This document shows positions 1,691 to 3,829 of a stretch of 64,000 nucleotides of DNA, piece by piece. The stretch is taken from NCBI RefSeq assembly GCF_002257585.1, contig NZ_CP022743.1, positions 4,712,001-4,776,000 of the forward strand, in the 5' to 3' direction. Under the pieces are notes generated by a model, which made no database searches, had not been told where the DNA came from, and worked only from the letters and a program-made list of their open reading frames with translations. Position 1 is the stretch's first letter; every line of letters starts with the position of its first letter. A program made the translations under genes and the position numbers. The DNA comes from Mucilaginibacter xinganensis (lineage in GTDB: Bacteria > Bacteroidota > Bacteroidia > Sphingobacteriales > Sphingobacteriaceae).

Positions 1691-1861
1691 ATGAACATTC
1701 CATCTCTTATATTTTATGCCGTGTTTTTAGTACCCTTTGTGGTATTTTTAATTTGGCTGATGCGGCAGGACAAACGCAAAGGCAAAACAGGCCTTATAGT
1801 TTTAGCCATTATGGTTATTGGCTGCATAGCCTACATGTATTGGAAAACCCAGGGCCAATAA
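1691..1861 (+). CDS. Small two-helix membrane protein
   Basis: A 56-residue frame starts at ATG 1691 (MNIPSLIFYAVF...) and ends at TAA 1859-1861. It has two hydrophobic segments (about residues 6-23 and 35-50) separated by the basic loop MRQDKRKGKTG, giving a helical hairpin with a short tail YWKTQGQ. The charge pattern and clean start and stop suggest a real gene. It follows tsaD in the same direction after 107 bases but is separated by an inverted repeat, so co-transcription is uncertain. No family was recognised. Confidence 0.6.
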   Translation: MNIPSLIFYAVFLVPFVVFLIWLMRQDKRKGKTGLIVLAIMVIGCIAYMYWKTQGQ

Positions 1862-1890
1862 AAAAGGTGCGTCCCTTACAAACGCACCCC
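1859..1890 (-). terminator. Intrinsic terminator of the peptide gene
   Basis: GGTGCGT (1866-1872) pairs with ACGCACC (1882-1888). Read on the minus strand the hairpin is followed by a run of T, directly after the GG-leader peptide gene. Confidence 0.7.
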
Positions 1891-1908
1891 CTTCAATGGC
1901 TTTTTAAA

Positions 1909-2115
1909 TTAAGCACAATACAGAAATGATCCGTGGCCCGCTGCCGAACAATAAGCAGGCTGACAACCAATGGGCTGCTGCCCGTTAGGAAACGGGTTGG
2001 TGGTAGAGGAACAAAAGGTTTGCTGTAAAGCTCCTCCTGTAATTTGTTTTAATTCCTGCCTTGACAATTCTGTTTTCAGGCTCAATTTGCCTGCGGGCTT
2101 AGGTTGTTTTTCCAT
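1909..2115 (-). CDS. GG-leader peptide, candidate RiPP/bacteriocin-like precursor
   Basis: A 68-residue peptide has a textbook Bacteroidota GG-type leader: LSLKTELSRQELKQITGG, with the double glycine at residues 27-28. Cleavage after it would release a 40-residue core with cysteines at 35, 51, 56 and 67, a TFCSSTT cluster, several prolines, glycines and glutamines and few charges. Such leaders are recognised by peptidase-containing ABC exporters and by RiPP-modifying enzymes; none of these families (LanB, LanM, radical SAM, C39 exporter) is in the window. The only partner is the DUF6734-type gene upstream on the same strand. A T-tailed hairpin follows the stop. The precursor class is well supported; the final modification is unknown. 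Confidence 0.75.
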   Translation of the reverse strand: MEKQPKPAGKLSLKTELSRQELKQITGGALQQTFCSSTTNPFPNGQQPIGCQPAYCSAAGHGSFLYCA

Positions 2116-2173
2116 GATCTTTAAATTTTAAATTGGTTTATATATTAAATGTAGAATTATTCTTTTTAATCCA

Positions 2174-2181
2174 CAAACTTA
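2174..2181 (-). promoter_or_regulatory. Possible -7 promoter element for the peptide gene
   Basis: On the minus strand TAAGTTTG fits the Bacteroidota -7 consensus TAnnTTTG, about 60 bases before the peptide ATG and after the stop of the upstream gene. No TTTG is seen at the ideal -33 spacing, so this is tentative. Confidence 0.35.
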
Positions 2182-2194
2182 TTTTAACCAATAG

Positions 2195-3829
2195 CTAAAT
2201 TTTAATTTCAACCACACCCGCATAAAGCAACCCTTTAATCGTACTAATTATCAACTGTTTAAAGGATAAATAATCTTCTTCTATTTCCTCCGAAGAAAAA
2301 TGCGTTTTCAATTCAATTAACAAATTGGCTATCGTAAAAACGTCCTTTACGGTATCAAAAACAATCATGTCCAGCTCATCCAAATAATACTCCTTAACAC
2401 CGCCCTCTAACTCCGACGGCAGGAGCAACATCGGGCACACCGCCTTTTCCGTATTAAAATTCCTTTGTATCAGTGCATGCACCTGTTCTTTATAGTCCAG
2501 CTTCCAGTTCAGGCTATGGTTAAGCAATTTGTAATGTATCGGCAATCCAATCTTAATTTGGAGTAATTCATCATCCGGCAATGAGAAAACGTTTCGAATG
2601 TTGCTATAATTTTCGCGGTCGGCTTTATAAAGGTTGGTTACTGTCGCTTCATCAGTGTATAGCTTTTCCAATAGCTCGTTTGCTGCTGATTCCAACCCGA
2701 ATATCTCCAGCAGGCAATCGCAATCGGAAGCTTCGGATACTCGTAACTTAACATTCTTTATAAATTCAGCAGGAGGGGCATTGCTGTTAAGACCTGCTAT
2801 TTGATTTTGCGGATCTTTTTTATTCAGATAATCGATTGCTGCATTTGTCCGCAAAAAAGATGATTCGACAGCTTTTCCCGGATTCTGCTGTGCCAATTCC
2901 GTCAGCTTCAACAACGGGGAGTAATATATGGCCGACCGCATACTTAGCCCTTCAGATCTGACCAGATCAATTATCCGGTAGTAATAATCAGGATAATCGC
3001 TCCTCAATGTCCTGGCAACGTGATCACATACGTGATGGTATTTTTTAAAATTGCCAACCGGGTGCACCATGGCTACGTTTGGATGATCCTCAAATTTAAT
3101 ATAGTCCTTAAATACAGGATCATCCACCATGGGCCGGTAGTACGTAACCGGGATCCTGTTTTCGGCTGCAAGCTGGCAAAACAGGTATTGCTCAAAAATA
3201 AAGTTTAAGCTGCCGGTATTCACCTTATTCAGGTTATCTTTATTTTTATCTATAAAATCAAAAGCCTCGCGGCTGTACCATCTAAAAAAATCAAGATCAC
3301 TGCCTCCTATTAAGCCTGCATTACTTCCATACACATCCTTATTTTCATAGTGCTGCCTTTGTAAAACAGGGGGGACAAAAGTAAAATGCTGATTTATCTG
3401 GTTCAATGTATAAGGATAGAACTCCAGGTTTTTGTCAAGATTTTGAGCCAGCAGGCGTGAATTCATAAAATCAGCATCTGGCTTCTGCCACAAAAAAACA
3501 TCGCCGTCCAAATGCAGAAAAGGTTCCGCTTGAGTACCATAAGTATGGATTTTCGCCAGCGAAAACAAAGCGGGATGATAATTATCAAGCGTTCCCTCCA
3601 AACTAACAGACACGGTGGAATAAGGCAATTCCAACTGATCAATTAAAATTTGTTTCCCTTTTTCATCGGTCACCAGGTTAACGTCACCAAAAACACTTTT
3701 GGCCTGCAGGCAACTCAGGGCCCAGCTCATCCAATGATACTCGCATGATAGCCAGCCCGCTTTAGTGCTTAACAGGTTTTGGTTAGCTTTATCAGCAGGG
3801 CCGCTCCAAAAGGTTTGCAAAATTTTCAT
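2195..3829 (-). CDS. DUF6734-type protein with glycosyltransferase-like N-domain and PqqD-like C-terminus
   Basis: The 544-residue protein starts MKILQTFWSGP, continues through a WMSWALSCLQ segment, and has FLHLDGDVFLW with a DxD motif at D108-D110. This is the pattern of DUF6734 proteins and resembles GT-A nucleotide-sugar enzymes. Residues about 300-480 are not recognised. The last 64 residues (from about 481: LDELDMIVFDTVKDVF, then LLIELKTHF, EEDYLSFKQLI and GLLYAGVVEI) have the spacing and hydrophobic pattern of PqqD-like winged helices, which bind RiPP leader peptides. No signal peptide is seen. It lies 79 bases upstream of a GG-leader peptide gene on the same strand. From DxD plus leader-binder plus peptide I infer a peptide-modifying enzyme, perhaps a glycosyltransferase. 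The DUF call is moderately firm; the function is a hypothesis. Confidence 0.7.
   Translation of the reverse strand: MKILQTFWSGPADKANQNLLSTKAGWLSCEYHWMSWALSCLQAKSVFGDVNLVTDEKGKQILIDQLELPYSTVSVSLEGTLDNYHPALFSLAKIHTYGTQAEPFLHLDGDVFLWQKPDADFMNSRLLAQNLDKNLEFYPYTLNQINQHFTFVPPVLQRQHYENKDVYGSNAGLIGGSDLDFFRWYSREAFDFIDKNKDNLNKVNTGSLNFIFEQYLFCQLAAENRIPVTYYRPMVDDPVFKDYIKFEDHPNVAMVHPVGNFKKYHHVCDHVARTLRSDYPDYYYRIIDLVRSEGLSMRSAIYYSPLLKLTELAQQNPGKAVESSFLRTNAAIDYLNKKDPQNQIAGLNSNAPPAEFIKNVKLRVSEASDCDCLLEIFGLESAANELLEKLYTDEATVTNLYKADRENYSNIRNVFSLPDDELLQIKIGLPIHYKLLNHSLNWKLDYKEQVHALIQRNFNTEKAVCPMLLLPSELEGGVKEYYLDELDMIVFDTVKDVFTIANLLIELKTHFSSEEIEEDYLSFKQLIISTIKGLLYAGVVEIKI

Follow-up and report, generated by a model that had tools for sequence, protein, structure and literature searches.

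A DUF6734 protein with a predicted GT-A fold encoded beside a double-glycine leader peptide in Mucilaginibacter xinganensis: a candidate peptide glycosylation system

A 64,000-nucleotide stretch of the Mucilaginibacter xinganensis genome (NZ_CP022743.1, positions 4,712,001 to 4,776,000; hereafter the window), a genome assembled as a single 5.3 Mb contig, encodes a protein of the DUF6734 family followed by a small peptide with a double-glycine (GG) leader. The best explanation of this gene pair, which we regard as reasonably probable, is that the DUF6734 protein works as a glycosyltransferase that is guided by the leader and modifies a disulfide-type peptide, the two forming a minimal unit for a ribosomally synthesised and post-translationally modified peptide (RiPP). 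The evidence comes from the linkage of the two genes across genomes, the predicted GT-A fold of the N-terminal domain of the enzyme, the likeness of its C-terminal end to a leader-binding element, and the conservation of the peptide.

A clear peptide relative (E < 1e-15) was found in 11 of the 149 genomes searched within the genus, and DUF6734 in 19, and each of the 11 peptide-bearing genomes is among these 19; the peptide is thus found with the enzyme in 11 genomes and without it in none, whilst 8 genomes carry DUF6734 only and 130 neither (Fisher test 5e-12, with relatedness ignored). Fourteen of 25 genomes, those with weak peptide matches only (E 9e-5 to 0.01), were not counted as carrying a window-type peptide. 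In one genome (G113) the pair is split between two contigs, enzyme and peptide each being encoded at a contig end, as expected from a broken assembly. A lone peptide also occurs at a second site, beside a 702-residue protein which we take to be RecG, in M. xinganensis itself (G000), G045 and G852; in G850 a lone peptide on a short contig has the same downstream genes as this site. DUF6734 is not at the second site in any of these genomes and is encoded at another site in four of four, a co-occurrence which indicates that enzyme and peptide accompany each other also where they are not neighbours. At two further loci (L014 and L015), the same 702-residue protein and a transporter flank an enzyme–peptide pair. 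The orphan relative in M. xinganensis lies at L225:7081-7266 (minus strand; G000:C1:4545086), where two other species carry the pair.

DUF6734 has a patchy distribution: it is present in 9 of 100 relatives and, at the level of the family and the phylum, in 21 of 399 and 16 of 395 genomes, respectively. In regions of 20 kb around DUF6734 matches we counted open reading frames (ORFs) obeying a GG/Cys rule, namely 40–120 residues, a hydrophobic-spaced GG at 18–48 and at least two later cysteines, on the same strand and within 3 kb; controls were 20 regions of 20 kb (398 kb), chosen blind from at least 18 of the same genomes. Such an ORF is present at 22 of 42 DUF6734 loci of Bacteroidota, a count that omits two duplicates (L012 and L016) and a fragment (L054). 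In all, 29 GG/Cys ORFs were observed where approximately 1.6 are expected from the 4 control matches; the nominal P of 1e-26 should not be read at face value, since the loci are partly related and P values are consequently too small. The second ORF of L015 (1106 bases off) and that of L051 look like chance occurrences, and were kept among the 29. GG peptides accompany the long form of DUF6734 at 21 of 29 loci and the short form at 1 of 13. An initial annotation of this DNA, made from its letters alone, had set conserved linkage between DUF6734 and GG peptides as a test of its own reading, and that linkage is present both in the genus and across the phylum.

The N-terminal part of the enzyme matches Pfam DUF6734 (PF20508) over residues 1–289 (E 2e-112; 375.7 bits against a cut-off of 27), and orthologues are 51–68% identical over the full length; named relatives (52–67% identity) are Mucilaginibacter in every case. 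The DxD motif of the enzyme sits within H106-L-D108-G-D110. H106, D108, D110, K93, Q100, G172, G175, H256 and K262 are conserved in 45 of 45 DUF6734 ORFs of at least 270 residues, and H106, D108, D110, N170, E213, Q214, H256 and K262 in 59 of 59 rows of an alignment that includes relatives from viral contigs. This alignment, used for the final structure model, contains 52 sequences from viral contigs (of 86 distinct viral ORFs), those longer than approximately 320 residues and near-duplicates having been left out. A model made from 7 close sequences was discarded (mean predicted local distance difference test score, pLDDT, 38.3).

In the final AlphaFold2 model the N-domain is confidently predicted, with a mean pLDDT above 90 in 22 of the 29 leading ten-residue blocks. 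Among the PDB matches listed, 50 of 50 from Foldseek and 50 of 50 from VIA-align are glycosyltransferases. The best VIA-align match is glycogenin (Z 12.8, root-mean-square deviation 3.5, 203 aligned residues within 1–285), and further Z-scores are 12.1 for LARGE1, 11.8 for UGGT, 11.6 for LgtC and 11.0 for alpha-1,3-galactosyltransferase. On the basis of the model, we are confident that the N-domain has a GT-A glycosyltransferase fold; the GT-A relationship proposed in the initial annotation, for which an unrelated fold had been named as the contrary outcome, is therefore borne out by every match listed. The active site layout is likewise reminiscent of family GT8, as nine GT8 sequences share with DUF6734 an order of motifs running from DxD through NxG and DQ (EQ in DUF6734) to a histidine with a lysine six residues on; in the GT8 alignment consensus the histidine is H240 and the lysine follows at the same six-residue step. 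Modelled in this way, the N-domain would transfer a sugar from a nucleotide sugar.

The C-terminal end of the enzyme resembles PqqD, the archetypal RiPP recognition element (RRE), a domain that holds leaders. The profile of this region scores 30.6 against that of PqqD (probability value 58.9, 58 columns aligned), exceeding 200 of 200 column shuffles (mean 10.7, maximum 18.8); the reversed profile scores 13.3, and control comparisons with wrong partners score 12.6 and 15.7. The PqqD profile was built from 17 of 30 PqqD loci. No single member of the 27 compared matched Pfam PqqD, and for that reason we treat the RRE likeness as moderate evidence, supported but not proven. A PqqD/RRE-like end, which the initial annotation had missed, fits the association of the long form with GG peptides.

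The leader of the peptide, MEKQPKPAGKLSLKTELSRQELKQITGG, terminates in ELSRQELKQITGG, and the four cysteines all lie downstream of the GG, in a core of 40 residues. Across 10 aligned relatives C35, C51, C56, C67, T33 and Y55 are invariant (10/10), and in a wider alignment T33 and Y55 are kept in 12 of 12 peptides; the core contains four cysteines in 10 of these 12 and six in the other 2. The ratio of nonsynonymous to synonymous change (pN/pS, uncorrected and summed over 10 chosen pairs of the 12 peptides, for which synonymous change is close to saturation) is 0.16 for the leader and 0.15 for the core. Purifying selection acts on the leader and on the core alike, and their equal constraint points to a fixed product, not to a library of variants. 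The window peptide lies above the cut-off of no precursor model, its best matches being weak ones to GG-leader and bacteriocin models. It reaches 12.9 bits, against a cut-off of 25, with the leader model TIGR04149 (radical SAM-modified RiPPs), which 8 of 10 relatives match at E up to 1, below the cut-off; NF038153 is weakly matched by 4 of 10 peptides (best E 3.1e-4).

In the mechanism that we favour, the peptide would be made with its 28-residue leader, which the PqqD/RRE-like end of the enzyme would hold. The GT-A domain would use H-x-D-x-D and H256/K262 to bind a metal ion and a nucleotide sugar; the sugar would pass to a core residue, with Thr33 or Tyr55 the likeliest acceptor and a cysteine the alternative. 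Thr33 and Tyr55 are favoured because the even number of cysteines in window-type peptides leaves none spare for S-glycosylation. Cleavage of the leader after the GG would fall to a C39 exporter encoded at another place in the genome, and the four cysteines would pair as disulfides. Glycosylation, the sugar, its acceptor, the export route, the disulfides and the biological role are what we infer from the genes and the model. The proposal in the initial annotation that the DUF6734-type protein modifies the peptide is nonetheless supported by the linkage and by the GT-A fold, with glycosylation the presumed chemistry.

Several observations weigh against a leader-guided glycosyltransferase. The comparison of the DUF6734 profile with one built from 9 of 15 GT8 loci scores 14.1, a value reached by 43 of 100 shuffles; Pfam glycosyltransferase matches are weak (Nucleotid_trans at 0.044 in 1 of 27 members), the GT8 model PF01501 is unmatched in the same 27 members at E up to 5, and a PDB search by sequence profile gave four matches up to E 10, none of them a glycosyltransferase, which were taken as chance. 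Because these profiles fail to find each other, the relation of DUF6734 to GT8 is one of fold and active site layout and not of family membership. Residues after approximately 420 are poorly modelled (pLDDT approximately 36–72), the model showing helices and two strands there, where the winged fold of an RRE has three helices and three strands. The window pair has neither a transporter nor a redox gene as a neighbour. Eight long-form loci (L053, L055, L056, L057, L060, L072, L084 and L089) have no peptide under the strict rule; the L072 peptide fails only the pattern, that of L055 appears under a looser rule and L084 is cut by a contig end, whilst L053, L056, L057, L060 and L089 stay without one. 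Relatives in phage-like, nonribosomal peptide synthetase (NRPS)-like and injection-system-like settings without GG peptides indicate that the domain is not peptide-specific.

An enzyme of GT-A fold might instead attach something other than a sugar (a nucleotidyl or a phospho-sugar moiety, for instance) or a single primer sugar for a longer glycan, although we think this unlikely. The fold alone does not fix the chemistry, glycogenin is among the nearest structures and Tyr55 is invariant; glycogenin itself self-glycosylates a tyrosine. The listed PDB matches from both structure comparisons are, however, all sugar transferases, and DxD, NxG, (D/E)Q and H-x5-K occur in the same order as in GT8, which argues for transfer of a sugar.

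Equally improbable, in our judgement, is a reading in which the peptide acts without modification, as a disulfide bacteriocin or a signal, and DUF6734 glycosylates another target, such as the cell's own surface or an immunity factor; co-regulation or self-protection would then explain why the two genes have stayed together. Such a division would accommodate the DUF6734 relatives in loci of viral, NRPS-like and injection-system-like type, where GG peptides are lacking, and the even cysteine count in 23 of the 29 GG/Cys core ORFs, as expected of plain disulfide peptides. It fits less well with the RRE-like end, since this is how modifying enzymes hold leaders, with the preference of GG peptides for the long form, and with the co-occurrence in some genomes of an orphan second-site peptide and an enzyme at the first site. 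General protein O-glycosylation of Bacteroidota (PMC12871550) was considered and set aside.

A role for DUF6734 as a secondary tailoring enzyme, with the main enzyme (for example of lanthionine or radical SAM type) acting in trans, appears very unlikely. DUF6734 does sit with LanB and LanC at three loci and with a radical SAM protein at one, and the leader resembles those of Bacteroidetes class I LanA peptides, both in its weak matches to NF038153 and by comparison with the leaders given in PMC7268733. Against this, the pair stands alone at orthologous sites, and LanB had no match in the M. xinganensis genome, a weak negative as control genomes likewise gave none. Chance juxtaposition of a random small ORF and an unrelated enzyme is scarcely credible, for although short GG-motif ORFs do arise randomly (4 in 20 control regions), purifying selection, recurrence in 11 genomes and the linkage counts contradict it.

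The layout of the pair is given in Table 1. Both genes lie on the minus strand with an intergenic gap of 79 bases (2116-2194), and the pair is repeated in other species at similar spacing (59–80 bases). The hairpin ends in a U run on the minus strand and folds at -28.3 kcal/mol, compared with -13.7 +/- 2.9 for shuffles; a simple consensus terminator scan did not include it among its matches. ORF and folding analysis reproduced the arrangement first described, comprising a 68-residue GG peptide with four cysteines, a 544-residue DxD protein, the spacing between them and the hairpin.

Table 1. Features of the DUF6734–peptide gene pair (window positions).
Feature	Position	Strand	Basis
DUF6734 enzyme gene, 544 aa, first gene of pair	2195-3829	-	ORF; PF20508 match
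Precursor peptide gene, 68 aa	1909-2115	-	ORF; relatives aligned
T-tailed hairpin 3' of peptide gene, probable terminator	1859-1895	-	z -5.03; 0/200 shuffles as stable
Leader, peptide residues 1-28, ending ITGG	2032-2115	-	putative C39-type cleavage site
Core, peptide residues 29-68; C35, C51, C56, C67 and conserved T33, Y55	1912-2031	-	
N-terminal GT-A-like glycosyltransferase domain, residues 1-290	2960-3829	-	structure model; VIA-align
H-x-D-x-D motif, residues 106-110	3500-3514	-	residue conservation; putative metal/nucleotide-sugar site
H256-PVGNF-K262, counterpart of GT8 H-x5-K element	3044-3064	-	conservation; GT8 alignment consensus
C-terminal PqqD/RRE-like region, ~residues 450-544	2198-2482	-	profile-profile score; putative leader binding

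Neighbouring genes were clustered over 43 DUF6734 loci. Exporters with a C39-like N-terminus are present at 10 of these, and the one C39-type exporter submitted to Pfam contains C39, ABC membrane and ABC ATPase domains. A HlyD-like cluster occurs at 8 of the 43 loci and a membrane-protein cluster at 9, two Pfam-tested members of the latter being fusions of a C39-like domain, VKOR and thioredoxin. A C39 exporter and a thiol oxidoreductase are thus features of other DUF6734 loci and not of the window locus; the M. xinganensis genome does encode two exporter-sized C39 frames as well as three C39-VKOR frames, which makes export and disulfide formation in trans possible. LanB, LanC and a luciferase-like protein are encoded at three loci (L061, L076 and L077) and a radical SAM-SPASM protein at one (L058). 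The description of the system in the initial annotation as lacking LanB/LanM or radical SAM consequently fits the window locus and the sites orthologous to it, yet does not extend to the family. Single-domain DUF6734 adjoins proteins of 637–680 residues with a LanC-like part at L074, L085 and L088 (Pfam LANC_like confirmed for L074 and L088), and the genes around L074 and L088 presumably encode nonribosomal peptide synthetases.

M. xinganensis contains a second RiPP-type DUF6734 locus (L087:2224-10935; G000:C1:1572-1581 kb), with a C39 exporter, a HlyD-like protein, a C39-VKOR-thioredoxin fusion and three GG peptides that have eight core cysteines. This locus also encodes a divergent DUF6625 protein (PF20330, E 1.2e-61) with a DxD-like stretch; a literature search found no mention of DUF6625. 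Further short GG/Cys peptides are encoded with no DUF6734 nearby (L231:5705-5893, L232:5957-6124 and L233:10250-10857), some adjoining C39-VKOR fusions, and the genome seems rich in such peptides.

Relatives of DUF6734 also occur in other settings. A first scan of viral contigs, with an alignment of 7 sequences, found no relative, and a scan with a second alignment gave 106 matches, of which 80 were kept. The contigs concerned (L112-L191), which are filed as viral, encode up to five such ORFs in a row (L128:57-4707), the ORFs probably representing a phage glycosyltransferase family. PHROGs matched 0 of 5 proteins submitted, four of them viral relatives, and two phage-type queries gave 0 matches in annotated phage records; a plasmid search returned 2 records with a match. 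Divergent DUF6734-like genes are present at L064-L068, as tandem pairs in three loci, beside genes that we take to encode parts of an extracellular contractile injection system, including DUF4157-like proteins. One DUF6734 copy (L052:9630-10400) has two internal stop codons and is probably decayed.

Glycocins are the closest functional parallel. As described in PMC12457901, these are O- or S-glycosylated disulfide peptides made with a dedicated glycosyltransferase, a C39 exporter and thiol oxidoreductases. Like sublancin, glycocin F and thermoglycocin, the window pair combines a small leader peptide and disulfide-type cysteines with its own glycosyltransferase-like enzyme, and its precursor shares the GG-type leader and has four core cysteines, for which disulfides are predicted. 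Here the exporters and VKOR-thioredoxin fusions are encoded at other DUF6734 loci and at other places in the M. xinganensis genome. DUF6734 has no PF00535 (GT2) match in 27 members, a distinction from SunS and GccA drawn by Pfam alone; its enzyme carries an RRE-like end, the host phylum is Bacteroidota, and the even cysteines of window-type peptides leave no evident spare for an S-linkage. By analogy, the window pair probably works like a glycocin system but is no member by enzyme family.

DUF6734 resembles the GT8 proteins glycogenin, LgtC and LARGE1 (first domain) in its GT-A fold (Z 11.6–12.8) and motif order, but has no counterpart of the Pro-Trp that invariably follows the motif lysine in the GT8 sequences compared. 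Fusions of an RRE with a glycosyltransferase in RiPP-like clusters were noted by RRE-Finder as unexplored new architectures (PMC7470986), and RRE fusions with PF00535 (GT2) glycosyltransferases have been described (PMC12710340). DUF6734 shares with the RRE-Finder fusions the presence of RRE-like and glycosyltransferase-like parts on one chain; the portions of the two papers available neither name DUF6734 nor describe the products. GG-ending class I leaders (LxLxK...GG) are reported for Bacteroidetes (PMC7268733), and the window peptide is alike in leader style and GG site, with DUF6734 present in the three LanB/LanC loci; the window locus differs in having neither LanB nor LanC, and in a core that shows no sign of needing dehydration. 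Peptide S-glycosyltransferase domains are reported to occur in some Bacteroidales clusters (PMC10352776). Our literature search found no mention of DUF6734, no paper on its pairing with GG peptides among those listed, and no paper combining RiPP, glycosyltransferase family 8 and leader peptide.

More tentatively, long-form DUF6734 could define a new class of Bacteroidota RiPPs, with GT-A and RRE in one chain and O-glycosylated, disulfide-braced peptides as products. In that possible class, a reading which we judge as a whole and hold with less than even confidence, the glycosyltransferase would be the sole class-defining enzyme, and its GT-A domain would be shared with phages, with separate recruitments into settings of lanthipeptide, nonribosomal-peptide and injection-system type.

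The analysis gives DUF6734, an unnamed enzyme family, a testable function, and does the same for the neighbouring GG peptides, many of which score below every curated precursor model. To our knowledge, the peptide glycosyltransferases of glycocins belong to one other family. If the proposal is correct, genome searches could reach a wider range of glycosylated peptides, since Gram-negative soil bacteria would have a second family of such enzymes, one guided by leaders; the pair would also offer a compact two-gene system for peptide glycosylation in the laboratory.

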